Below are positions 1-59,145 of a DNA stretch of 64,000 bases, piece after piece; the first letter of the stretch is position 1, and each line of letters begins with the position of its first letter. The translations under genes and the position numbers were made by a program. The stretch covers positions 1 to 64,000 of the forward strand of contig CALYQW010000016.1 of the NCBI GenBank assembly GCA_945290265.1, written 5' to 3'. The stretch comes from an uncultured Erwinia sp. (GTDB taxonomy: Bacteria > Pseudomonadota > Gammaproteobacteria > Enterobacterales > Enterobacteriaceae). The notes beneath the pieces were generated by a model. The model was given only the letters and a program-made list of their open reading frames with translations, ran no database searches and was not told the DNA's origin.

Positions 1-60
1 CCTTTGCCTTTGCCTTTGCCTTTGCCTTTGCCTTTGCCTTTGCCTTTGCCTTTGCCTTTG
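1..60. repeat. Hexanucleotide tandem repeat (CCTTTG)n
   Basis: Ten perfect, uninterrupted copies of CCTTTG (GGCAAA/CAAAGG on the other strand) start at the first base, so the array may extend beyond the window. It lies at the 3' end of repeat copy 1. The other two copies have degenerate versions of the same kind of tract at the same end, so the array looks like an expanded tail of that element. No coding function is apparent. Confidence 0.95.
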
Positions 61-405
61 ACCTGGTAGTTGACCTTAGGGCGGCATCAGGAATATCGCC
101 GAGGTAACGCTGATTTCCAGGACGAGCCGCCACGGACGGCGGCGAGATGGCGTGCTTCGCCTGGACGGCGAATCACGCCGGTCCGTCGGAAATTGGCGTA
201 GCCGAGGGCACCCGCGAAGCGGGCGATATGACGCCGCAGAGCCCGGGAGCAGGGCGGCGGCGACTGGCCGCCCTGCTCGCCAGTCCGCGCAGCGGAATGG
301 TGAAACGTCGTTGACTTTAGCTTTTGACCTGGCTTTTAAAACACACAAAAACCAAAGCTAAAACAACCACCAAACCCAGCCCCACGCCAGTGGACCAGCC
401 CCAGG
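1..405 (-). repeat. Structured dispersed repeat, copy 1
   Basis: Read on the minus strand this matches two other intervals (28790-29165 and 35618-36010) over a core at about 75-312. Five inverted repeats are visible here: 285-288/292-295, 247-257/268-278 (11 bp), 211-215/219-223, 149-154/174-179 with an inner 156-161/167-172, and 126-131/138-143. The outer part, about 345-405, matches about 35621-35690 of copy 3. The element begins about 15 bases past the yfeY stop in the direction of yfeY transcription, so it may lie in that mRNA's 3' region. Its other end runs into the hexamer tract at 1-60 and the window edge, so its full length is unknown. I do not recognise the family. Confidence 0.8.
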
Positions 406-419
406 TCCAGGTCTCGACC

Positions 420-1043
420 CTATTTCCGCCAGATAATCTTACTCACCGTCCAGCTCTTAAGCGTCTCGTCCGCCGGGATCAACGCCTGCGGCCCGTGCCA
501 CTTACCACTAAACAAATAGCTGATATGCGCGCTGCCCGGTGCCTTACACTCAACCCCGTCTGCATCTGCCCCGCTGCCTTTACGACAGGCACCGAAAGCT
601 TTGGAATAAAGCTCGCTAAACGGCGTACCGATCTTAACCCCGCTCTCACTGCGGATATCGGCATCCGTCACGTCAATACGGCTGACGGTCTTATCACCGC
701 TGATTTCAATCTGCGGCTGATTATCACTGTTGAGCGCCTGCCAGAAATGAATGATGTTGCCATCCTCGCCCCGCATCCCCTGACGCAGACGATAATTACC
801 GTGTAACCCGTCGCTGATTGCCTGCTGCTCCATGGCGGTAGCACCGCTGACAGCACCTACCCCACTTTCCGTTACCTGTAACGACGCGCCAAACCAGTGC
901 CAGGGAGACAGGCTGGACCATGACCAGGATATCGGGTTCCACCAGGTCGTTTCGCTGGTGGCGGTGGCAGTCTGATGCCCTGAACCGGCACAACCTGCCA
1001 GCAGTAATGCACCCGCGATCAGCGCCGGACGAAAGTCTTTCAT
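420..1043 (-). CDS. yfeY: RpoE-regulated lipoprotein YfeY (DUF1131)
   Basis: A 207-residue protein beginning MKDFRPALIAGALLLAGC: a short signal peptide with lipobox LLAGC, so lipidation at the cysteine is expected. The rest is soluble and resembles the YfeY/DUF1131 family, whose E. coli member is expressed from a sigma-E promoter; the molecular role is unknown. An upstream in-frame start at 1190 was rejected because the ATG at 1043 has a strong AGGAGG ribosome site 7 bases before it and places the signal peptide at the N terminus. yfeZ lies upstream on the same strand, as in E. coli. The stop codon is followed almost immediately by structured repeat copy 1. Confidence 0.9.
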   Translation of the reverse strand: MKDFRPALIAGALLLAGCAGSGHQTATATSETTWWNPISWSWSSLSPWHWFGASLQVTESGVGAVSGATAMEQQAISDGLHGNYRLRQGMRGEDGNIIHFWQALNSDNQPQIEISGDKTVSRIDVTDADIRSESGVKIGTPFSELYSKAFGACRKGSGADADGVECKAPGSAHISYLFSGKWHGPQALIPADETLKSWTVSKIIWRK

Positions 1044-1108
1044 TACCCCTCCTGAGGTTTTAATCAGTATCCGCAAACAAGCATTGGAGTCTGAAACGGT
1101 AAAAAAGT

Positions 1109-1558
1109 TTATCCGGCATGATAATCCGGGTCGAAGCAGTCGCGCAGACGCTGCCACAACAGCAGTGCCAGCAACGCCACCAGATCGCACAGAAACACGG
1201 TCAGAGAGAGTGCAGTCATGGTTTCATCATCGCGCCACCAGCTCAGCGCCTGCCAGCCAGCGGTGCTGAGCAGAGAAGCGCTCAGCACCCAGCGCCAGGC
1301 CTGCCACAGACGCGGCAGTTTATGCCGGTAGCCGGTCAGCAGCAGTCCGAGAGCGGCGGGCACCCCGGAGGCCAGCCCCAGCCAGAAAGCCCGGGTATCG
1401 GGGTAAAACAGTGCCAGCAAATCGGTTCCCTGCTGGCGAGAGGCTCCGGCCATTACAAACAGCACCCAGGTACGCGCCTGCAACAGCAGGATCGCCCAAA
1501 AGGCCAGCGGCAAATGCAGCTGGCCTTTATTATCAAAATCGTCAGGAGAATAATTCAC
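1109..1558 (-). CDS. yfeZ: Inner-membrane protein YfeZ (DUF2919)
   Basis: 149 residues with about four hydrophobic stretches (near 17-37, 57-75, 88-104 and 117-135), consistent with a small polytopic inner-membrane protein of the YfeZ/DUF2919 family. The start is a GTG at 1558; no ATG lies nearby and the N terminus MNYSPDDFDNKGQLHLP is family-like. It sits between ypeA and yfeY on one strand, the E. coli order, with 34 bases to the ypeA stop, so co-transcription is likely. The function is not known. Confidence 0.85.
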   Translation of the reverse strand: MNYSPDDFDNKGQLHLPLAFWAILLLQARTWVLFVMAGASRQQGTDLLALFYPDTRAFWLGLASGVPAALGLLLTGYRHKLPRLWQAWRWVLSASLLSTAGWQALSWWRDDETMTALSLTVFLCDLVALLALLLWQRLRDCFDPDYHAG

Positions 1559-27448: not shown

Positions 27449-28735
27449 TCAGTGTGGCGACGATCGCTCATCGTCAACATCAATCACCTGTTCTTCTTTA
27501 TACCGTACGCTGATTAACTTAAAGATCAGGCTTAAGCCAACGCCAACAATGGTCGCCAGCGCCATGCCTTTCAGCTCCGCCGCGCCGATATGCACCTTGG
27601 CTCCGCTGACGCCAATAATCAGGATCACCGAGGTCAGGATCAGATTCTGCGCTTTACTGTAGTCCACTTTCGATTCGATCAGCACCCGGATCCCGGAAGC
27701 GCCAATCACTCCGTACAGCAGCAGCGACACGCCGCCCATAACCGGCACCGGGATCGCCTGAATCGCCGCCGCCAGCTTTCCAATGCAGGAGAGCAGGATC
27801 GCCAGAATAGCAGCGCCGCCAATTACCCAGGTGCTGTATACCTGGGTGATCGCCATCACGCCGATATTTTCGCCGTAAGTGGTGTTGGGCGTGGAGCCAA
27901 AAAAGCCGGAGAACACGGTGGAAATACCGTTGGCAAACATTGAGCGATGCAGACCAGGGTCTGTCAGCAAATCCTTTTTAACAATATTGGCGGTCACCAC
28001 CAGATGCCCGACATGCTCGGCAATCACCACCAGCGCCGCCGGCAAAATAGTGAAAATGGCAAACCATTCAAACTTCGGCGTATAGAAGGTCGGCAGAGCA
28101 AACCAGTGGGCCTGCTCTACCCCGCTCCAGTCCACCATCCCCATAGTGGAGGCCAGGGCGTAGCCCACCAGTACCCCGATCAGGATCGGGATAATCGCCA
28201 GGAAGCCACGAAACATCACCGCGCCCAGTACCGTGACGCTCAGGGTGGTTAGCGAGACAATCAGGGTGTTGCTGTCAGCAACTGCGCCTTCTGCCGGTAA
28301 CAGTCCGGCCATATTGGCCGCCACGCCCGCCAGTTCCAGCCCGATAACCGCCACAATCGCCCCCATTGCCGCCGGCGGAAACATCACATCCAGCCAGCCG
28401 GTACCGGCTTTTTTGACAATCAGTGCCACCAGGCAGAACAGCAGACCGCACATAATAAAGCCGCCCAGCGCCACTTCATAACCCAGCGGCAGCAGCAGTA
28501 CCGGGGAGATAAAAGCAAAGCTGGAGCCGAGATAGGCTGGAATTTTGCCCTTACAGATAAACAGATACAGCAGCGTGCCAATGCCGTTAAACAGCAGGAT
28601 GGTGGCCGGATTAACATGAAACAGGATCGGCACCAGCACCGTTGAGCCAAACATGGCAAACAGATGCTGGAAGCTGAGAGGAATGGTTTGCAGCAGCGGT
28701 GGCCGCTCGTTAACGCCAATTGCCCGACGCGTCAT
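27449..28735 (-). CDS. uraA: Uracil:proton symporter UraA
   Basis: 428 residues (E. coli 429) with fourteen hydrophobic segments, nucleobase-ascorbate transporter (NCS2) family. Imports uracil for salvage by Upp. Motifs: LLQTIPLSFQHLFAMFGSTVLVPILF at the N terminus, PAYLGSSFAFISP, the substrate-site glutamate in VVIAEHVGHL near 241, and the NCS2 signature STVFSGFFGSTPNTTYGENIGVMAITQVYS near 270-299. It normally follows upp directly in one operon. Here a 460-base gap containing structured repeat copy 2 separates them. Confidence 0.96.
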   Translation of the reverse strand: MTRRAIGVNERPPLLQTIPLSFQHLFAMFGSTVLVPILFHVNPATILLFNGIGTLLYLFICKGKIPAYLGSSFAFISPVLLLPLGYEVALGGFIMCGLLFCLVALIVKKAGTGWLDVMFPPAAMGAIVAVIGLELAGVAANMAGLLPAEGAVADSNTLIVSLTTLSVTVLGAVMFRGFLAIIPILIGVLVGYALASTMGMVDWSGVEQAHWFALPTFYTPKFEWFAIFTILPAALVVIAEHVGHLVVTANIVKKDLLTDPGLHRSMFANGISTVFSGFFGSTPNTTYGENIGVMAITQVYSTWVIGGAAILAILLSCIGKLAAAIQAIPVPVMGGVSLLLYGVIGASGIRVLIESKVDYSKAQNLILTSVILIIGVSGAKVHIGAAELKGMALATIVGVGLSLIFKLISVRYKEEQVIDVDDERSSPH

Positions 28736-28789
28736 GATGTACCCCTTGTGAGATAAATTGCATAAATAAGCCGGCTCTGCGGCCGGTTT

Positions 28790-29165
28790 TGTGGCTTTGC
28801 AGCCTGTGCTTTTAAAAGCCAGGGCAAGTGAGCTGGGGCCGGGACTTTGCAGCCTGTGTCCTTAAAAGCCAGGGCAAGGTCAGGGACGTTTCACCATCCC
28901 GTTTCACGGGCTGGCGACAAGGGGCTTTCAGTCGCAATGGCCCCTTGACCCCATGCTTGCGGCGTCACTTCGCCCGCTGTCGCGGGTTCCCTCGGCCACG
29001 CCAATTTCTGGCGGACCGGCGTGATTCGACATCCTGTCTCAACACGCCTTTCGCCGCCGTCCTGGCGGCTCTTCCTGGAAATCCGCGTAACCTCGGCTCC
29101 GTTCCTGATGCCGCCCAAAGGTCAAGGTCAACATCAAACGCCAGGTCAAATTCAAAAGCCGAAAG
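28790..29165 (+). repeat. Structured dispersed repeat, copy 2, inside the upp-uraA gap
   Basis: Core 28885-29118 aligns with copies 1 and 3. Inverted repeats: CCCGT/ACGGG (28898-28902/28906-28910), CAAGGGGC/GCCCCTTG (28918-28925/28940-28947), CCCGC/GCGGG (28973-28977/28982-28986), GGCGTG/CACGCC (29018-29023/29043-29048) with inner GACA/TGTC, and GCCGCC/GGCGGC (29053-29058/29064-29069). The 5' flank holds a duplicated segment containing TTAAAAGCCAGGGCAAG (copies near 28811 and 28862); the 3' flank is a degenerate GGTCAA tract. In this orientation the element is antisense to upp-uraA transcription, unlike the other two copies, which are sense to the preceding gene. Confidence 0.85.
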
Positions 29166-29198
29166 AAAAGACCTGTGTCTGAGGGCGACCTGGCAGTT

Positions 29199-29825
29199 TT
29201 ATTTGGTACCGAAGATCTTATCACCGGCATCACCCAGGCCCGGGATAATATAGCCCTTATCGTTCAGCCCTTGATCGATAGAGGCGGTATACAGCTCAAC
29301 ATCCGGGTGGGCTTTTTCCAGTGCGGCGATCCCTTCCGGAGCAGCCACCAGCACCAGCACTTTAATCGCGTGGCAGCCAGCCTTTTTCAGCAGGTCAATG
29401 GTGGCAATCATTGAGCCACCGGTCGCCAGCATTGGATCCACCACCAGCGCCATACGTTCTTCAATATTGGATACCAGCTTCTGGAAGTAAGGCACCGGCT
29501 CGAGGGTTTCTTCGTCACGATAGACGCCCACCACGCTGATACGGGCGCTGGGCACATGCTCCAGCACCCCTTCCATCATGCCCAGACCGGCACGCAGGAT
29601 CGGCACTACGGTGATTTTTTTACCTTTAATTTGCTGAATCGCTACCGGGCCATTCCAGCCTTCGATGGTCACAGTTTCGGTTTCCAGATCGGCGGTGGCT
29701 TCATAAGTCAACAGACTGCCAACTTCTGAGGCCAGTTCACGAAAACGCTTGGTGCTGACATCATTTTCACGCATCAGACCCAGTTTATGTTGAACCAGCG
29801 GGTGTTTGACTTCGACGATCTTCAT
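29199..29825 (-). CDS. upp: Uracil phosphoribosyltransferase
   Basis: 208 residues, identical in length to E. coli Upp. Converts uracil and PRPP to UMP in pyrimidine salvage. Motifs: [20 protein letters not shown] at the N terminus, the [19 protein letters not shown] segment, [24 protein letters not shown], the PRPP loop [21 protein letters not shown] near 126-146, and the uracil site [25 protein letters not shown] at the C terminus. First gene of the salvage pair with uraA, separated from it by repeat copy 2. purM, normally adjacent and divergent, is 4 kb away across an insertion. Confidence 0.97.
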
Positions 29826-30745
29826 GGTTGTACTCCCGGAGTATTAGCTGCAAAAAAAATCGCGCGATTATACCGCTTTTTTGCAGAATGCCCTATGAGT
29901 TAAGGCAACAAAGCGGCGATTGTGGCGTGGTTTTCAGAGCAGGTATGGTGAAAAAGGTGGGGATGGGGGGTGATTTTTTACTGAGGGAGGTGAACAAATC
30001 GGTACTGGCGGGAACAGGGCTGTATAAAGCGTTAATTGACGGGCATACCATTGAATAAAAATTAAGGAGAATCGAGCTGATGCAAGGACTGATACAGAGA
30101 TAGGGGATAAATTAGCTATAGTAAGAACATAAAAGGGGAAGAGGTCGGCATTGTGCCAAAAGCGGAAGTAGCTAACAGCACTTAGTGTTGATAACGGGGA
30201 GCAGGTCACACTCCCTGCCTGCCCTTTTGCGGCGATCCCTTTATACCTCCTGCAGCTGCCTAGCATACTAGATGTAGCGCCTGGCGGTGCGTTACACCTT
30301 CTTTCCGTGGAGATGTTCTGCACCCGCCCCACCCGGCCATTCGGTAAAACTTCCCTGCTGGCAGGTTTAATCGAATACGATTTGTCGCCAGTGGAATTTT
30401 TCTTCTTGCTTTTTTACAAACTTCACAATGGCGAGTTAGAGAATTTTATTCTGACATTAAGCCTATATCCGCTTCTCGTTCACAGAGGGCCTTCAGCTCA
30501 GTCAGCCCGTCCGATTAGACCCAACAAATGACGTTTTTAACCCATGTCATTATTCAATGGAGAGCAGGTCACATTGGATCTAAAGATACAGTTGAAGGTA
30601 AGTCGAAGGAGTCAGTCGCGTTCTGATATAGACTCAGCTGGCATCCTAATAAGCATGCCAGTCACAAAAGGTTATTAACTTTGTCCTGTTTATATATCAA
30701 CACCGGGTATATATATCCGTCCAGCGGCTAGCCTGAATGAAACCA
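29826..30745. other. Gene-poor part of the upp-purM island
   Basis: About 920 bases with no ORF I can support. It starts with the upp promoter region. Beyond about 29930 the composition is uneven and several short ORFs (29828-30058, 30307-30531 plus; 29934-30332 minus) have no recognisable family. An imperfect direct repeat, GAGCAGGTCACA, occurs near 30198 and 30562. It may be debris from insertion of the ATPase gene. No integrase or attachment site was seen. Confidence 0.4.
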
Positions 30746-33412
30746 TCAAAGCATTCCGTACTTCTGTTCGCGCGCCTCAAAGGCGTGCCGTCCGCCTTCC
30801 AGTACGTCACAGATGGCCTTACGCATGCTGTTTTCCTGACCATGCTCACCGTGCTCCAATGCGCCACTGCGGTAGCTGATTATTTCATCCTCATTACTCG
30901 CCACAATCACCTGCTCGGCATCGCAGTTTACAACCAAGTTGGCATTGTGGGTCACAATGATGACCTGACGATACAGTTTAATTTTACGAAAAAGCGGTAC
31001 GAGTTGGCGCATAATAAAGTCATTATCGAGGTCGTCTTCGGGCTGGTCGAAAACGAACGGTGAGCCGAACGCGTCGGTTGCCAGCTTAAGGCAAACATAG
31101 AATGTTCCGCGCTGCCCGGCCGACAACTTATCCACGGTTTTCCCTTTGTATTCAAACTCGGCTCTGATCCTAAGATAGCTTTTGATTTGATCTGGAGCGT
31201 AAAGAAATCGCAGCAGTGCGTAAGGCCCCGGGCTGTTGAAATACTCTGATCTCCAGAGGAATGTCTCAAGCGTGATTTTCTTGCTAGGTTCCTCGGGGAG
31301 CTCAATAATGGCGTCTCCCCGTACGAGCGCCATAAAGTCATCGATGCTCCTGACGCCCAACAGCTGAGCTAGTTTTTCCGTACCAGACTGCTCACCTGCG
31401 GTACGAAACCTTCCCCGGTTGAGCCGCTCAAGAATACCGTTGTAAAAGGCCGTTAAGTCAAAGTGAGGCTGTCCATAAATGCGAATATCGGTTAGGATTT
31501 CCTTTATTAACGCCCGCTGAGCTGGAACTAGATGTGATTTTTCAGCCAGTGCTGCAAAGCAGGTATTTATCGCCGTTTTCTGCTCTAAGAGCTGACTGAC
31601 ATATTTCACCGTCAGGATCTCCCGCTGCCTGACATCATTATTGTACTGATTGATACGCTGCTTTATTTCGCCATCCCTGAGATTTGCCTGTTGAATGTCC
31701 CGCTGGTAGCCTTGGATTTTGTCGAGCACACCCGAGATATCCTGCTCAATACCTTGTTCCCTGAATTCACGGGTGATCCGACTGTTATCCTCGCCTGTCT
31801 GCTTTAACTGCGTCTGCAGCGCCTCCATATAAGCGGTGACCTTACCCTTTACTTCTGACAGATCCAATGGCGGCACTGGCACTACGCTTGAGGGCACCAA
31901 ATTCATTCCGGCCAGCAAGGTATTCAGGGTGGATTCCGCGGCTTCTGCTTCCCGCATAAAGGCGTTTCCTGCATTTAAACCCTGCGTCAGCGAGGTGGTG
32001 CGCAGGCTGTTGGCCTGAAATCGCTCAATTAGCGCTTTGTTCTTTTCACTGGTAAGCGTGCTGATTTTGCCTTGGGCAACCCTGATCACCTCAACCTGGT
32101 GCTCCGGCGTATTGATGTAGCGCTGCTGTTCGTCTTGGGCTGAATAATATTCGCGAAAAGTCCGATAGGCATTAAGATTATCATCAAGCTCTCCTCGCAG
32201 TTCGTCAGGAACTTCACTGTCGGACAAACGCAGCATTTTTTTTATTTCATCGCTGATGAGGCCTGGCTGCTGACATAGAGTTTTGATTTCTCCCTGCGAA
32301 ACGTGAAGATAGTCATAATTTTCGGTGCGGGCATCGAACCGTATCTTTTCTCCATCTGCTTTATCCAGCACAACGGCAAGGTGCTCCACGCTGACCGCGC
32401 GCTCCTCGCTACCGCGGGTGGCAGTGCCAGCAAAGAGTGAGCGCAGTGCGTCAAGCAACAGACTCTTTCCGGTACCCCGACCGCCGATAATGGCCACCAT
32501 GTCCTTATTCAGTGGAATATCTAGCTTTCTAAACTGGATTGATTGCCCGTCGAAAATGGTGCCTTCAACCTCAATATGGCTAAAGTAAGCTTTGGGGATT
32601 ATTTTTTCCGGCCAGTCATCACCCATCTGTAGGCGGCCTTCAGGCTCCAGCAGCGCTTGGCGGAGCCCCTCAAACGTGGGCTTTGCCTTGACCCAAGTGT
32701 AGGCCTTTCCGATATGTTCTATCCGGTGAGCGTCTGAACAAAGAAAAACCGGCTTAACTAAAGCCCCTGGATAACGCGAGGTCGAAAGGAAATACTCCCT
32801 ATCGGGTAACCCGCCAAAAATGATGTTTCCCTGCCGATCTATTTCAGTGGCAATAGCTGCCGAACGTCCGTTTGCCCCCGGACGGTAACCGCCATAACCA
32901 TTAGGGCAAACTGCAACGACGTAATCGAGAAAGGGCCTCATTGCTGACGAAAGATGCCCGAGTAGCTGGCTAAGGTCTACAACAATAGTACCCACATCAT
33001 GCCCGCTGTCACGCACGCTGCTCTCACAGGCATATACCGCTTTTCCGCTTCCATCGGTAAGCTTCAGAGGAAGTCTTGAGAGAGTGTCATTTATTCTTTC
33101 AGTGCTGAGTTTGTCGGAAAACAGAACGTGCACGTTGATAAACGTCCCTTCCTTATTCTGCTGATCTAGGCGAAACTCAACGTTGCCCAGAACAGTAACG
33201 TTCAGGCCTTGACGAGCAACTTCATCTCTGATCGTCTCTAGTTCATTCTGGCGGAAGTAAAAATAATTGGTAACGCCGATTAAAGTCAGCTGTTGCTCGC
33301 CGATTTTTCTGACAAAGGCTTCAGCGTCACAGCTACCAGTGTACATGTTGGCCAGCCAAGTCATCGGGCTGTGCAGGTGTAGGTCCCACTTGTTCCATTC
33401 CGATCCTTTCAT
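30746..33412 (-). CDS. PHP-domain / SMC-like ATPase (TrlF/Ppl-type), putative antiphage protein
   Basis: 888 residues from the ATG at 33412, which has GGAG 9 bases upstream; in-frame starts at 33427 and 33496 are less likely. Domains: an N-terminal PHP phosphoesterase-like domain beginning WNKWDLHLHSP (residues 6-16) with SDAH near 226-229; an ABC/SMC-type ATPase with Walker A GGRGTGKS (310-317), a long middle region of coiled-coil-like helices (about 400-640), signature LSAGQ (763-767), Walker B FVFDQPEDDLDN (786-797) and H-loop THNANL (821-826). This is the TrlF-family architecture; a PHP-plus-ATPase protein called Ppl has been reported as a single-gene antiphage system. Defence here is inferred from architecture and its island location between upp and purM. 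Confidence 0.8.
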   Translation of the reverse strand: MKGSEWNKWDLHLHSPMTWLANMYTGSCDAEAFVRKIGEQQLTLIGVTNYFYFRQNELETIRDEVARQGLNVTVLGNVEFRLDQQNKEGTFINVHVLFSDKLSTERINDTLSRLPLKLTDGSGKAVYACESSVRDSGHDVGTIVVDLSQLLGHLSSAMRPFLDYVVAVCPNGYGGYRPGANGRSAAIATEIDRQGNIIFGGLPDREYFLSTSRYPGALVKPVFLCSDAHRIEHIGKAYTWVKAKPTFEGLRQALLEPEGRLQMGDDWPEKIIPKAYFSHIEVEGTIFDGQSIQFRKLDIPLNKDMVAIIGGRGTGKSLLLDALRSLFAGTATRGSEERAVSVEHLAVVLDKADGEKIRFDARTENYDYLHVSQGEIKTLCQQPGLISDEIKKMLRLSDSEVPDELRGELDDNLNAYRTFREYYSAQDEQQRYINTPEHQVEVIRVAQGKISTLTSEKNKALIERFQANSLRTTSLTQGLNAGNAFMREAEAAESTLNTLLAGMNLVPSSVVPVPPLDLSEVKGKVTAYMEALQTQLKQTGEDNSRITREFREQGIEQDISGVLDKIQGYQRDIQQANLRDGEIKQRINQYNNDVRQREILTVKYVSQLLEQKTAINTCFAALAEKSHLVPAQRALIKEILTDIRIYGQPHFDLTAFYNGILERLNRGRFRTAGEQSGTEKLAQLLGVRSIDDFMALVRGDAIIELPEEPSKKITLETFLWRSEYFNSPGPYALLRFLYAPDQIKSYLRIRAEFEYKGKTVDKLSAGQRGTFYVCLKLATDAFGSPFVFDQPEDDLDNDFIMRQLVPLFRKIKLYRQVIIVTHNANLVVNCDAEQVIVASNEDEIISYRSGALEHGEHGQENSMRKAICDVLEGGRHAFEAREQKYGML

Positions 33413-33922
33413 GCAGAGAAACTCCATCTCGTTAAGATTAATCTCAATGGCATAATAAGAGGAGTTATGCGCGAGTGCTATAAAATTGATCAGCACATGA
33501 AGTTCAGGTTATGCGATTGGCTTGTTCCCCGTTGATAATCACACGCAAATTTTAGTGATGCATTCCGGTTGTTACGACATATGTGAATTTACGCTCTTCG
33601 CTCAAATCAGCCGGATGGTGTTCAGTAGACCACGGTGCACTAAGCACTACCACAAATGCCTCAGGAATATCACTAAAGATATTTTTTGCCTGCAGTCGAA
33701 GTGGCTGATACGTTCGAGATGAAAACCAGCATTTCTCCCTCCGCCCTATACAGCCACACCACCAACCACCGGTCCAATCTCCCCCACTTCTGCCAGCAAA
33801 TAAATACCCCAACCCAATCCCCCACCGCAATCAAAACGGCGCTCGCAAACGTTTGCCTGCGCTGGTAGAATCAACGCGCTTTATTTTATACCACCAATCG
33901 CAAACCGCGTGGGGACCTTGCA
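33413..33922. other. Divergent region between the PHP-ATPase gene and purM
   Basis: About 510 bases. The purM-proximal end holds the PurR box and purM promoter. A minus-strand reading frame at 33552-33830 has a partly protein-like stretch but no recognised family and no clear ribosome site, so it is not annotated. Its 3' part could be a remnant linked to the island. Confidence 0.4.
33843..33858. promoter_or_regulatory. PurR operator of purMN
   Basis: The palindrome GCAAACGTTTGC (33845-33856) lies within TCGCAAACGTTTGCCT. This fits the PurR consensus ANGCAANCGNTTNCNT except for T in place of the first A. It lies about 65 bases before the purM start, the position of the E. coli purMN operator. 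Confidence 0.9.
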
Positions 33923-34963
33923 GTGACGGACAAAACCTCTCTCAGCTATAAAGACGCCGGCGTAGATATTGATGCGGGTAATGCTTTAGTCGATCGTATT
34001 AAAGGCGTAGTGAAAAAAACCCGCCGCCCGGAAGTGATGGGTGGCCTGGGTGGTTTCGGTGCCCTTTGTGCTCTGCCGCAAAAATACCGCGAGCCGGTGC
34101 TGGTTTCCGGCACCGATGGCGTGGGCACCAAGCTGCGTCTGGCGATGGATCTGAAACGCCACGACAGTATCGGCATCGACCTGGTCGCCATGTGCGTCAA
34201 TGATCTGGTGGTACAGGGTGCCGAACCGCTGTTTTTCCTCGATTACTATGCCACCGGTAAGCTGGATGTTGATACCGCAGCCAGCGTGATTACCGGGATT
34301 GCCGAGGGCTGTAGCCAGTCCGGCTGTGCGCTGGTGGGCGGCGAAACCGCCGAAATGCCGGGCATGTACCACGGTGAAGATTACGATGTCGCCGGGTTCT
34401 GCGTTGGCGTGGTGGAAAAATCAGAGATTATTGACGGCAGCAAAGTGCAGGAAGGCGATGTGCTGCTGGCACTTGGCTCAAGCGGCCCGCACTCTAACGG
34501 CTACTCGCTGGTGCGTAAAATCCTCGAAGTCAGCAACACCGACCCGGAAACCACCCAGCTTGCAGGGAAATCGCTGGCCGATCATCTGCTGGCCCCGACC
34601 CGTATTTACGTGAAAAATTTGCTCAGCCTGATTGAGCAGGTTGACGTTCACGCCATTGCCCATCTGACCGGCGGCGGTTTCTGGGAGAATATTCCGCGCG
34701 TGCTGCCGGAAAATACTCAGGCAGTGCTGGAAGAGTCCAGCTGGCAGTGGCCGGCGGTATTCGACTGGCTGCAACAGGCCGGTAACGTCAGCCGTCATGA
34801 AATGTACCGCACCTTTAACTGCGGCGTTGGTATGGTGATTGCCCTCAGTGAACAGGATGCCGACCGCGCGCTGCAGCTGCTGCGTGAAGCCGGTGAAGAA
34901 GCGTGGAAAATCGGCGTGATTAAGGCCACCACTGGCGCGGAAACCGTGGTTATTAACCCATGA
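33923..34963 (+). CDS. purM: AIR synthetase (phosphoribosylformylglycinamidine cyclo-ligase)
   Basis: 346 residues (E. coli 345). Closes the imidazole ring to form AIR in purine synthesis, using ATP. Conserved segments: [35 protein letters not shown], the ATP-binding [57 protein letters not shown] and [15 protein letters not shown]. The start codon is GTG at 33923; the family N terminus begins exactly there. Its last bases overlap the purN ATG (ATGA), so translation is coupled. Under PurR control through the upstream operator. Confidence 0.97.
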
Positions 34964-35598
34964 AGCGAATAGTGGTGCTGGTGTCCGGCAATGGCAGCAA
35001 TCTGCAGGCCATTCTTGATGCCTGCCAGCAGGGAAGAATTAATGGCAGCGTAGCTGCCGTATTCAGCAACCACGCCGATGCCTTTGCCTTGCAGCGGGCG
35101 CAGCAGGCTGGCGTGCCGTCCCATGCGCTGGCGGCTGACGACTTTGCCGATCGTGAAGCCTTCGACCGCCAGCTGATGCAGCAGATCGACAGCTACGCTC
35201 CCGATCTGGTGGTACTGGCGGGCTATATGCGTATTCTCAGCGCGGAATTTGTCGGTCATTTCGCCGGGCGGATGCTGAATATTCACCCCTCGCTGCTGCC
35301 AAAATATCCGGGTCTGGATACCCATCGCCGGGCAATTGAAAACGGCGACAGCGAGCACGGCACCTCGGTGCATTTTGTTACCGAGCAGCTGGACGGTGGT
35401 CCGGTGATTTTGCAGGCCAAAGTGCCGGTGTTTGCCGATGACAGTGAAGCCGACGTCGCAGCCCGTGTGCAGCATCAGGAACATGCCATCTATCCGCTGG
35501 CGATCGGCTGGTTTATGGACGGGCGGCTGGAAATGCGGGATAACGCTGCCTGGCTGGATGGACAGCCGCTGCCTGCGGCGGGTTATGCGGTAGATTGA
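34960..35598 (+). CDS. purN: Phosphoribosylglycinamide formyltransferase 1
   Basis: 212 residues (E. coli 212). Transfers a formyl group from 10-formyl-THF to GAR in purine synthesis. Motifs: [17 protein letters not shown] near the N terminus (GAR phosphate loop), [17 protein letters not shown], the catalytic triad segment [26 protein letters not shown] with Asn106/His108, and [22 protein letters not shown] with Asp144. Overlaps the purM stop by 4 bases. Structured repeat copy 3 starts about 20 bases after its stop in the same orientation. Confidence 0.97.
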
Positions 35599-35617
35599 CC
35601 GGTCGGGATCATAATTC

Positions 35618-36010
35618 GGAGCTGGTCCACTGGCGTGGGGCCGGTTTTATGGTTTGGTTTGGCTTTATTGTTGGTGTGTTCTTAAAACCAGGACCAGGTC
35701 AACGACGTTTCACCATTCCGCTGCGCGGACTGGCGACAAGGGGCCTTCAGTCGCAAAGGCCCCTTGACCCCGTGCTTGCGGCGTCACATCGCCTGCTGCG
35801 CAGGTTCCCTCGGCCACGCCAATTTCTGGCGGACCGGCGTGATTCGCCGTCCAGGCGAAGCACGCCTCTCATCGCCGTCCATGGCGATTCGTCCTGGAAA
35901 TCAGCGTAACCTCGGCGACGTTCCTGATGCCGCCCTAAGGTCAAAAGCAAGGTCAAAAACCAAAACAACTGCCAGGCCAAAAACCAGGGCAACGGCCAGG
36001 GCAATTGAGA
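35618..36010 (+). repeat. Structured dispersed repeat, copy 3
   Basis: Core 35700-35940. Inverted repeats: CCGC/GCGG (35718-35721/35725-35728), CAAGGGGCC/GGCCCCTTG (35737-35745/35758-35766), CCTGC/GCAGG (35792-35796/35800-35804), GGCGTG/CACGCC (35836-35841/35861-35866) with inner TTCGCC/GGCGAA (35843-35848/35854-35859), and ATCGCC/GGCGAT (35871-35876/35883-35888). The 5' flank from about 35621 (CTGGTCCACTGGCGTGGGG) is shared with copy 1. The 3' flank to about 36010 is a degenerate GGTCAA/GGCCAAAAA/CAGGGCAA tract. It lies between purN and the amidotransferase gene, sense to purN. Confidence 0.88.
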
Positions 36011-57251: not shown

Positions 57252-59145
57252 CTATCCTTGCCCACGCGGAACAACGATTTCCCAGCGCCCGCACTGTTGC
57301 AATGCCTGGTATTGTTCTTCACTGTCCTCAGCAAATCGCCCCAGTACGGCCGCCACCTGGCAGTGTTTGATGTCAATTGCTGGCCGGAATGATCTCGAAG
57401 TTTGACCAACCACATTGTCCTGCCTGTCATATCACAGGTAACGCCCTGCGTCTTCCCTTAAGGTCAGTGAATCACCTTCGCACAGTGCCCTGATGGCTTA
57501 AAGTATTTTGGCAGAAGAGGCGTGACGCCCGCTAAAACCAATGTCGATATCTTTTAACGTAAGTTGCTGAAAGGGGGTTTCCAGTCCGGCAAGCCGTTCA
57601 CCTGTAAACACCGATTGCTGAATACCTTCGGTCAGGCTGTGGCTGAACGGATTACTGTCAGCGAATTCGCACAATGTCAGCGCTTGCTCTGCCCGGGCCA
57701 TGCCAACGTAATACAGACGACGCTCATCAGCCAGCACGCTTTCCTGGGTGTTCCACCCACCGTCCAGCAGAACCACGTATCGGAACTCCAGTCCTTTTGC
57801 CGAATGTACGGTGCCCAGATACAGACCTTTCTTACGATGCTGGCGAACTTCGCCCGCTTAGCCGTACAGCCAGTCAACCAATGCTTCCCGACTCAGCAGA
57901 CATTCACCAAACTCACCCTGCATTTGCTCAAAGGCAGTCTGGTAACAGTTACGCCATCGCCCCTCCACTAACAGATGCGTATTCTCAGACGAGTGCAGCC
58001 AGCCTCAGCAGCATGCATGGCTTAACTTGCTTTCCGCATAATGTCAATGACAACCACAAAACTGCGCTGTCGCACAATCGGTAAGGCGCTATCCTTGTCT
58101 GCCGCCAGTAAATAAGGAGTGTTGTGCCGCTCGCACCAGGCCTGGATCGCCCACAAGTAGCGGTGTGTTCGGGCCAGAATGGCACAACCATTCCAGCTGC
58201 TTTCATCATCCAACGCCAGCAATCTCACCAGCTCCGCTATCGCCGCCTGAGCCTATAAATGAGCGCACTGATGCCGGTCTGAATCAATCAGCAGCCGCAG
58301 TACCCGACCTCCCCGCTGTTTAACCCGCTCCTGCCAGATGCCACCCGCAGGCAAAGTCTGCCGTGCCCGGTTAATTTGAATAGGGTTACTCTGTTTCATA
58401 CTGGCAGGATTCTGACTGATAAGCTGGTGAGCCGCAGCAATGACATGCCGGGAAGAACGGTAGTTATCCGTCAATCAGCCCCAACCAGAGCCAGCAGGCG
58501 TTATCGGATCTCATTTGCCGCATGGCGGTTGAAAGTCAGTGCCACAATACTGCTGGCCGCCCCCCGTCGTACACGAAGCAGGTAAGCGATACGATGCACA
58601 ATCACCCGCGTTTAGCCGGAGCCAGAGCCAGAGCCAGAGCCAGCCAGTACCAGCCGGTTCTGATCCTCATCGTTAACAACGATCATCTTTTGCTCAGCAC
58701 TGAGTGAGCCGATGATGGATTTCCAGGAATCTTCGCTGGTGGGCAGCTTAAGAACATTTTCTCTGCCGGGAAAATAGCGTTGGATAAATGCCTGCCCTGA
58801 AGCGGTGAACTGATCCAGCACCAGGCGCGATGAGCGGGTCATATCCTCCAGAGCGGCTTCAGCATACTCACGCATCACGTGCACCTGGATACGCTTTTCA
58901 CGGTAGTGATCATCAAGCCGCAGGTAATCCTCTTTAAGGAAAGTTTTACGTTTGTCTTCCCGGTTGACTTCAATGGCCATGGCGCGGCGCATAACGGTCA
59001 TACCATGATTAAGGGTTAAAATTTACTGACGATGCAGGTAAAGCAGCACATGTTCAATCACTCTGCGGCGGCGATCTGGCGCAATCTGATGCGGTAGTTC
59101 AAGGTCACTGGCAATCACCTGAAGCAGTTTCCCGAAACGTGGGCA
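57252..59145 (-). pseudogene. RecQ/UvrD-type helicase pseudogene with many stops
   Basis: Successive minus-strand pieces give FGKLLQVIASDLELPHQIAPDRRRRVIEHVLLYLHRQ, YLRLDDHYREKRIQVHVM, FPGRENVLKLPTSEDSWKSIIGSLSAEQKMIVVNDEDQNRLVLAGSGSG, then TRVIVHRIAYLLRVR, later GLYLGTVHSAKGLEFRYVVLLDGGWNTQES, ERRLYYVGMARAEQALTL, DIGFSGRHA and a tail VAAVLGRFAEDSEEQYQALQQCGRWEIVVP. The order (superfamily 1 motifs Ia to VI plus a VAAV..R..EDS C terminus) fits large bacterial RecQ-UvrD hybrid helicases, lacking the N-terminal half. In-frame stops occur near 57424, 57498, 57858, 58253 and at the Walker A lysine (58613-58615, AAA to TAA); frame changes lie between. Confidence 0.78.
58613..58646. repeat. GCCAGA hexamer expansion in the helicase Walker A
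   Basis: Five consecutive units of GAGCCA (TGGCTC on the coding strand, giving SGSGSG) expand what should be the P-loop G-P/S-G-S-G-K-T of the helicase pseudogene. The following codon is TAA in place of the lysine. Short tandem slippage within a decaying gene. Confidence 0.85.

Follow-up and report, generated by a model that had tools for sequence, protein, structure and literature searches.

A high-copy, five-hairpin intergenic repeat in an uncultured Erwinia contains a TwoAYGGAY-type double hairpin

Copies of the repeat and their genomic context

The window that we analyzed is a 64,000-nucleotide stretch from an uncultured Erwinia. It contains three full-length copies of a repeat, as delimited by BLAST: copy 1 at 70..315 on the minus strand (a core of 246 nt in the orientation of the repeat), copy 2 at 28877..29125 on the plus strand, and copy 3 at 35696..35945, also on the plus strand. 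We call the orientation in which the copies were first annotated the reader strand, and its opposite the GGA strand. Copy 1 adjoins a (CCTTTG)10 array (1..60, no strand assigned) and lies 3' of an open reading frame with a DUF1131 domain (420-1190, minus strand). Copy 2 is flanked by upp (uracil phosphoribosyltransferase; 29199-29825) and the permease gene uraA (27449-28735), which are both on the minus strand. Copy 3 lies 3' of a purN-like formyltransferase gene (34960-35598, plus strand). These genes were all identified with Pfam.

The initial annotation described a three-copy repeat with four shared blocks and five hairpins, and all of these are present in all three copies where they had been placed. 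Although the window does hold three copies, this is far from the total: using BLAST against stretches fetched from the same genome, we found that at least 78 places carry the repeat, and at least 66 of these are full length, with a core of ~250 nt by the BLAST limits. Both counts are lower bounds. Tandem-hexamer arrays of at least three units are present in the 220-nt flank of 22 of the 66 full-length copies, always on the same side (0/66 for the other flank), and an outer motif, CTGGTCCACTG, is found with up to two mismatches in 17 of the 66 left flanks. A plasmid or phage origin was rejected, as copy 3 had no BLAST match in either the plasmid or the phage collection.

The repeat sits mostly 3' of genes. 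Among the 55 places whose gene context could be classified, 30 are between convergent genes, 23 are between tandem genes, and 2 are between divergent genes. At 48 of the 55, the upstream gene reads into the reader strand. At the tandem sites, the GGA strand is antisense to both neighbors in 18 cases and sense in 5, versus 3 antisense and 9 sense in three related genomes (G006, G011, and G013).

Hairpins and covariation

In copy 3, hairpins 1, 2, and 3 are at 35710..35736, 35737..35766, and 35792..35804 (plus strand). Hairpins 4 (35836..35866) and 5 (35871..35888) are assigned to the minus strand, where their loops contain GGA (TCC on the plus strand) at 35850-35852 and at 35878-35880, the latter within CATGGACG. 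A single-sequence fold predicts that these two hairpins are enclosed in a domain (35812..35911, minus strand) with a 15-bp outer stem, whose arms (35812-35826 and 35897-35911) would include four G.U pairs on the GGA strand. The outer stem has partial support in the consensus of 66 copies, and single folds give a closed domain of 60–120 nt with two GGA loops in just 33 of the 66.

We assessed covariation in the 66 full-length copies from this genome, with the five hairpins represented by 34 pairs and with 500 column shuffles for comparison. Across the copies, 97.7% of cells were paired (85.8 ± 0.4% in shuffles), 18 pairs were changed on both sides (13.5 ± 1.2), 266 cells were changed on both sides (71.6 ± 8.1), and the covariation score was 0.341 (0.121 ± 0.006). 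None of the 500 shuffles reached any of these four values. A fifth measure, the number of further standard pair types, was not above the shuffles (37 versus 39.3). In slid controls, pairing was 36–44%. The double changes that the initial annotation relied on thus keep pairing beyond what shuffling gives, but they are compatible with a DNA hairpin as well as with an RNA.

There are 61 distinct combinations of the five hairpins among the 66 copies, and for 9 of the 10 pairs of hairpins, the two commonest alleles occur in all four gametic combinations. The hairpins are interchangeable modules that have been reshuffled among copies. Because of this, the double changes represent fewer independent events than their number. 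Also, several double-change columns have no intermediates: for instance, one has CG in 49 copies, TA in 17, and no other type.

Match to TwoAYGGAY

The repeat had been described as dispersed, as maintaining its pairing, as exceeding REP units in length, and as unlike any named family. All of this holds except for the last part, which is wrong for the core: an Rfam scan matched all three copies, on the strand opposite to the annotated one, to TwoAYGGAY (RF01731). The matches are at 118..187 on the plus strand for copy 1 (45.2 bits, model positions 43-116), 29002..29077 on the minus strand for copy 2 (39.6 bits, positions 43-124), and 35781..35926 on the minus strand for copy 3 (49.6 bits, positions 1-168). 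Copies 1 and 3 are above the gathering score of 43 bits and copy 2 is below it. The matches span 70, 76, and 146 nt of the ~250-nt repeat; none of them includes hairpin 1 or 2, and only the longest takes in hairpin 3.

As in the TwoAYGGAY model, two adjacent hairpins with GGA loops occur in order. In contrast, here they form the core of a longer repeat that has extra hairpins and occurs at many places in this genome, and the Y that precedes GGA is frequently missing or replaced by another base. TwoAYGGAY appeared among probable RNAs in 2010, in a report that includes γ-Proteobacteria among its taxa (PMC2864571). In 2014, TwoAYGGAY RNAs were predicted to bind CsrA, on the basis of motif matches (PMC4333381). 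Among the papers listed for TwoAYGGAY and RF01731, titles and abstract openings mention no dispersed repeats; a prior publication is possible.

This genome has at least 34 matches to RF01731 at E ≤ 0.001 (among the best 38 of 114 candidates). High copy number is patchy within the genus: among the matches listed, 7 of 36 genomes have at least 27, and 23 of 36 have none. Multi-copy RF01731 matches are also found in other families of the order.

GGA loops and CsrA-type motifs

The GGA loops of hairpins 4 and 5 are at 163..165 and 134..136 in copy 1 (plus strand; the latter in CACGGACG) and at 29032..29034 and 29060..29062 in copy 2 (minus strand; in GACAGGATGTC and CAGGACG, respectively). Loop 4 retains GGA in 63 of the 66 copies, with deletions accounting for two of the three exceptions, and loop 5 retains it in 64 of the 66. 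The bases that flank GGA vary in both loops, and in the commonest type of loop 5 (22/66 copies), the base before GGA is absent.

On the GGA strand, 65 of the 66 copies have at least one CsrA-type motif, CA(N)GGANG, and 49 have two or more, versus 2 of 66 copies with the motif on the reader strand. The mean is 2.08 per copy, as compared to 0.26 in mononucleotide shuffles and 0.22 under a first-order Markov model. At least two motifs are also present in all 40 copies from G006, G011, and G013, in all 23 copies of the E. rhapontici type, and in 34 of 52 type A and 37 of 39 type B copies from G002 and G035.

That GGA is kept in these two loops suggests recognition of a specific sequence, although other loops keep letters as well (C and CGC in loop 2, CT in loop 3). 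CsrA is the leading candidate for the recognizing protein. The genome does encode CsrA; extra copies of CsrA were rejected, as there is just one match to PF02599.

Strand and transcription signals

On the reader strand, the fixed columns of this genome contain 22 G.U cells and 30 A.C cells, not counting the 64 cells of a single fixed G-T pair. For the GGA hairpins, G.U:A.C is 2:1. In G006, G011, and G013, we found 13 distinct stems with G.U and none with A.C on the GGA strand (scored alike), while G002 and G035 are balanced (3:4 and 3:2 distinct stems). With the same script, and score cut-offs of 8 for CsrB and 10 for the repeats, the density of G.U was 0.3 per 100 pairs in this genome, 1.9 in G006, G011, and G013, and 7.0 in 20 CsrB regions.

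We dropped folding energy as proof of the strand because the advantage of the GGA strand is mostly due to composition (mean difference of -11.4 kcal/mol, versus -8.7 when shuffled, with the GGA strand lower). The reader strand of copy 3 folds better than its shuffles (z = -4.15). A scan of copies 2 and 3 found no sigma-70-like promoter around them and no terminator-like site inside their cores; those detected lie outside. Overall, neither the orientation relative to genes nor the density of wobbles supports a role as RNA in this genome.

Comparison with other repeats and RNAs

BIME/REP and ERIC elements are intergenic, structured, modular, and enriched between convergent genes, as is this repeat. 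The repeat differs from them and from BOX in length (the ERIC consensus is 127 bp) and, presumably, in sequence. REP/BIME elements are short palindromes mobilized by a RAYT (Y1) transposase, while the core here is ~250 nt and the genome has no matches to PF01797, the only type of transposase searched for (an E. coli control was positive). We therefore rejected a RAYT-driven REP. The repeat is REP/BIME-like by behavior, not by sequence. The BOX elements of pneumococcus are likewise intergenic, structured, modular, and enriched between convergent genes (PMC3049150), and the repeat resembles them in all of these respects. At the level of titles and listings, the literature on palindromic or BIME repeats of Erwinia, and on CsrA with repeats, held nothing relevant.

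The CsrB, CsrC, and RsmX/Y/Z sponges also have GGA in hairpin loops and letters like CAGGAYG, but these are separate genes with many sites. At least three copies of CsrB exceed the cut-off in this genome (among the best 31 of 95 candidates; contigs C15 and C53), at other locations than the repeat copies. We do not place the repeat in this class: copies 2 and 3 lack a promoter-like site, and positions 1-60000 of the window have no row for RF00018 at E ≤ 1, in output from which weaker overlapping matches to the same clan are suppressed. The number of CsrB genes showed no link to the load of elements; G002, G006, G011, G013, and G014 have one CsrB each over the cut-off (G035 was left out).

A MITE (non-autonomous transposon) is marked by terminal inverted repeats, target duplications, and pairs of empty and filled sites. 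No exact junction or target duplication could be defined in the sites compared between genomes. At one site from E. rhapontici, G032 has other sequence, which by eye is another palindromic repeat. Across 10 stretches of 20 kb from the near-identical G002 and G035, arrays of related repeats differ in length; these stretches contained one 90-base difference, adjoining an N in G035, and no clean insertion of a repeat.

Explanations for the repeat

We propose, with a probability of roughly 45%, that this is a BIME-like, high-copy, dispersed extragenic repeat that is built on a TwoAYGGAY-type double hairpin and perhaps binds CsrA when transcribed. Read-through from neighboring genes would transcribe the copies. 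In RNA from the GGA strand, both GGA loops would together serve as a paired binding site for a dimer of CsrA, and the copies might thereby work as small decoys for CsrA or as 3' tethers. Recombination or gene conversion, with some mobilizing activity, would spread and homogenize the copies, and 3' intergenic space would tolerate them.

A purely parasitic or neutral repeat is also quite plausible, if not our first choice. Here, a DNA-level agent such as a hairpin-binding transposase, or recombination or template switching on single-stranded DNA, would need or make the hairpins and loops, and RNA and CsrA would be irrelevant. The patchy high copy number, the shuffled modules, the double changes without intermediates, the rare and balanced wobbles in this genome, the inconsistent orientation relative to genes, and the varying arrays in G002 and G035 are all consistent with this. 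So is the enrichment between convergent genes, which for BOX was argued to signal mobile parasitic repeats (PMC3049150). However, the search for a Y1 transposase came up empty, and the GGA that is retained, on a single strand, fits a CsrA site and is seen again in several types of element. We consider it rather doubtful that the repeat is an mRNA 3' element which acts from the reader strand on the stability or termination of the upstream gene. The 48 of 55 places, the 18 versus 5 tandem sites, and the folding of copy 3 fit this idea, but the tandem bias is reversed in the related genomes and terminator-like sites were absent from both of the cores scanned. Also, we know of no protein site for UCC loops. 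Finally, the repeat might encode a small protein family, since open reading frames of 90, 141, and 104 amino acids overlap the three copies. We rejected this as extremely improbable: they have no Pfam match, the best frame is open through the core in just 20 of 66 copies, and core lengths, when divided by 3, leave every possible remainder.

Returning to the BIME-like repeat, we speculate, as a long shot, that some genomes of the order have a genome-wide, distributed CsrA-binding layer, with dozens of TwoAYGGAY repeats at the 3' ends of genes whose transcribed copies titrate CsrA or tether it locally. If so, read-through transcription across the chromosome would be coupled to the global Csr network, and a spreading repeat family could rewire it. 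In any case, RF01731 has been an orphan RNA family, and here it turns up in several lineages as a dispersed repeat of high copy number. With GGA loops kept in otherwise divergent copies, this supplies a wealth of natural variants on which CsrA binding could be tested directly, and it might link bacterial dispersed repeats with a global post-transcriptional regulator.

At the locus of copy 2, we fetched 80 upp-uraA loci from relatives; 8 of these were scanned and had no Rfam match at the gathering score. The gap between the two genes is 63–85 bp in 8 of the 15 relatives examined and ~460 bp in this genome, where a transcript from upp into uraA would include the GGA (TwoAYGGAY) strand of copy 2.

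A known family in dispersed-repeat form

Three stretches of the window share a core of about 250 nt and, as had been claimed, align from end to end: copy 1 at 70-315 (minus strand), copy 2 at 28877-29125 (plus strand), and copy 3 at 35696-35945 (plus strand). The observation behind the initial annotation was real, but its interpretation, which named no family, needs the other strand. When we scanned against Rfam (positions 1-64,000 at the gathering score and 1-60,000 at E ≤ 1), we found a single family, RF01731 (TwoAYGGAY), and it lies on the opposite strand of each of the three copies (45.2, 39.6, and 49.6 bits for copies 1, 2, and 3; the gathering score is 43). We will refer to the original orientation as the reader strand and to its complement as the GGA strand.

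The repeat is abundant in this genome (3.44 Mb in 62 contigs). A similarity search that covered the best 40 of 107 candidates gave at least 46 matches. With two further queries and the fetched loci added, there were at least 78 distinct BLAST places, of which at least 66 are full length. The total of 78 is a minimum because the similarity searches covered part of the candidates; acting in the opposite direction, a few places represent fragments or a single copy split in two. By BLAST, four loci taken from a pattern list (L071, L074, L075, and L076) contained no copy. At eleven contig ends, a copy is found no more than 200 bases away.

Conserved pairing and reshuffled hairpins

Five hairpins whose pairing is maintained by double changes had been proposed, and an alignment of 66 copies, compared with shuffles, bears this out. 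Over these hairpins, a 34-pair structure is 97.7% paired; 18 of the 34 pairs have both sides changed, and the covariation score is 0.341 (0.121 in shuffles); none of 500 shuffles reached any of these values. Further pair types in this alignment showed no excess over shuffles. On the reader strand, 15 of the 31 pairs from RNAalifold had double changes.

The 66 copies contain 61 distinct hairpin combinations, so the hairpins are modules, and all four gametes were seen for 9 of the 10 pairs of hairpins. Copies apparently exchange sequence by recombination or conversion. Because the modules are reshuffled, there are fewer independent change events than alignment cells.

CsrA-type motifs in the loops

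Loop 4 has TCC on the reader strand in 63/66 copies (two of the misses are deletions), as does loop 5 in 64/66, and the neighboring positions are variable in both. Loops 1-3 are more variable, though not free: loop 2 keeps its first C and CGC, and loop 3 its first CT. On the opposite strand, the kept letters are GGA within CA(N)GGANG. The SELEX consensus for the global regulator CsrA is RUACARGGAUGU, the repeat of its sponge RNA CsrB is CAGGA(U/A/C)G, and the RsmE site is A/UCANGGANGU/A; CA(N)GGANG is a reduction of these three. It occurs on the GGA strand at least once in 65/66 copies and at least twice in 49/66, with a mean of 2.08 per copy versus 0.26 in mononucleotide shuffles and 0.22 under a first-order Markov model, and on the reader strand in 2/66 copies. 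Related repeats also have two or more motifs: 40/40 copies from three related genomes (G006, G011, and G013), 23/23 of the Erwinia rhapontici type, and, in genomes G002 and G035, 34/52 of type A and 37/39 of type B.

Which strand, and RNA or DNA?

The GGA-strand fold of copy 3 has a 15-bp outer stem around hairpins 5 and 4 (z = -5.04; reader strand, z = -4.15). Across the 66 copies, the difference in folding energy between the strands is mostly due to composition, so we did not use it as proof of strand. RNAalifold energies were likewise lower for the GGA strand than for the reader strand, at -39.4 versus -32.4 (66-copy consensus) and -38.7 versus -27.7 (23 E. rhapontici-type copies); the same caveat applies to both consensus comparisons.

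Wobble pairs were scored on the GGA strand, treating G.U and A.C alike. Among G006/G011/G013, 13 distinct stems had G.U and none had A.C. The G.U:A.C ratios of distinct stems were 1:0 for the E. rhapontici type, 3:4 for type A, and 3:2 for type B; our genome had 2:1 cells. Structure on the GGA strand is thus supported by one group, G006/G011/G013, and the others are not informative either way. The control, a set of 20 CsrB regions, had 73 G.U and 34 A.C cells. Per 100 pairs, this is 7.0 G.U in CsrB, 0.3 in our genome, and 1.9 in G006/G011/G013 (with a score cutoff of 8 for CsrB and 10 for the repeats). Compared with a genuine CsrA RNA, stem wobbles in our genome are far rarer, and this points to a process at the level of DNA or of copying. 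G.T wobble is tolerated in DNA too.

Gene context came from a codon-usage gene caller, which classified 55 of the 78 places; at the other 23, a gene was missing on one side. The 55 comprise 30 convergent, 18 tandem in the reader-strand sense, 5 tandem in the GGA-strand sense, and 2 divergent, where the divergent places are two pieces of one copy and inverted pairs are counted twice. For G006/G011/G013, 38 of 40 places (taken in the listed order of the genome survey) were classified as 20 convergent, 9 GGA-sense, 3 antisense, and 6 divergent. The rule common to both sets is a place 3' of genes; the strand preference is not common.

Copy 2 lies between upp and uraA, in a gap of about 460 bp. Among 80 loci, we examined 15 relatives: the gap is 63-85 bp in eight, and longer with other sequence in seven. 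These gaps suggest that copy 2 was inserted between two genes running in the same direction. By eye, the post-upp gap (28736-29198; L127, L128, L129, and L158) holds unrelated sequences, some of them palindromic, in several Erwinia species; it is probably either an insertion hotspot or a tolerant site.

Our best explanation, with a probability of about 0.45, is a dispersed repeat that would be tolerated at gene 3' ends and whose core would be a paired GGA-hairpin module that, as RNA, may bind CsrA. One report predicts TwoAYGGAY to be CsrA-binding from motif matches, in Clostridia (PMC4333381), and another describes it as probably RNA and probably not cis-regulatory (PMC2864571). The repeat could instead be an ordinary parasitic one, as has been argued in an account of pneumococcal BOX (PMC3049150), with its hairpins kept by a DNA-level process. 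This is a realistic possibility: wobbles are rare relative to CsrB, and the unsettled gene orientation of the GGA strand counts against the RNA reading, whose odds are also lowered because loops 2 and 3 keep their letters. That dispersed TwoAYGGAY repeats form a putative genome-wide, distributed CsrA-binding layer seems unlikely.

In a search covering at most the best 31 candidates per genome, three CsrB genes in our genome exceeded the RF00018 cutoff, two of them close together on contig C15 (34423-34709 and 34991-35274) and one on C53 (10418-10749); each of the 21 other genomes of the genus in that search had one. Since five element-rich genomes have one CsrB, we claim no link between CsrB number and element load.

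Distribution and arrangement

In a survey with strict filters and at most the best 38 candidates per genome, so that low counts and zeros are uncertain, at least 18 of 60 genomes (ours included) had RF01731 matches at E ≤ 0.001, at least 13 of these over the cutoff; among the matches listed, 0 of 14 control genomes did. Within the genus, at least 13 of 36 genomes had any match and at least 7 had 27 or more. Across the order, where at most the best 13 candidates per genome were covered, at least 55 of 197 sampled genomes had matches, with several per genome in several families. One family (f12) had at least 4-13 in each of the 11 genomes listed, and by eye these are an AT-richer form (L315-L318). 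In a comparison that may exclude the window's own record, the best matches to UraA among named genomes (88-89% identity) include E. aphidicola, Erwinia sp. JUb26, E. rhapontici, and a Serratia record. The near-identical genomes G002 and G035 carry double-GGA repeat arrays of two types, with unequal lengths at the same sites (L229-L248).

In the BLAST list for our genome, copies form close convergent pairs eight times. We read six of these pairs in full (L003, L004, L041, L042, L044, and L049); in each, one of the two copies is from a second subfamily, with AAGGGGAGCACA or AAGGGGAGAACA, and most of the pairs have simple-repeat spacers. Hexamer arrays flank 22/66 copies on the right and none on the left; a similar pair-plus-array layout is present in two E. 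rhapontici loci that we read. The arrays consist of CAAAGG, AAACCC, and similar units, and the array at 1-60 is one case. A short AGCCAG array at 58614-58643 lies apart from the three copies.
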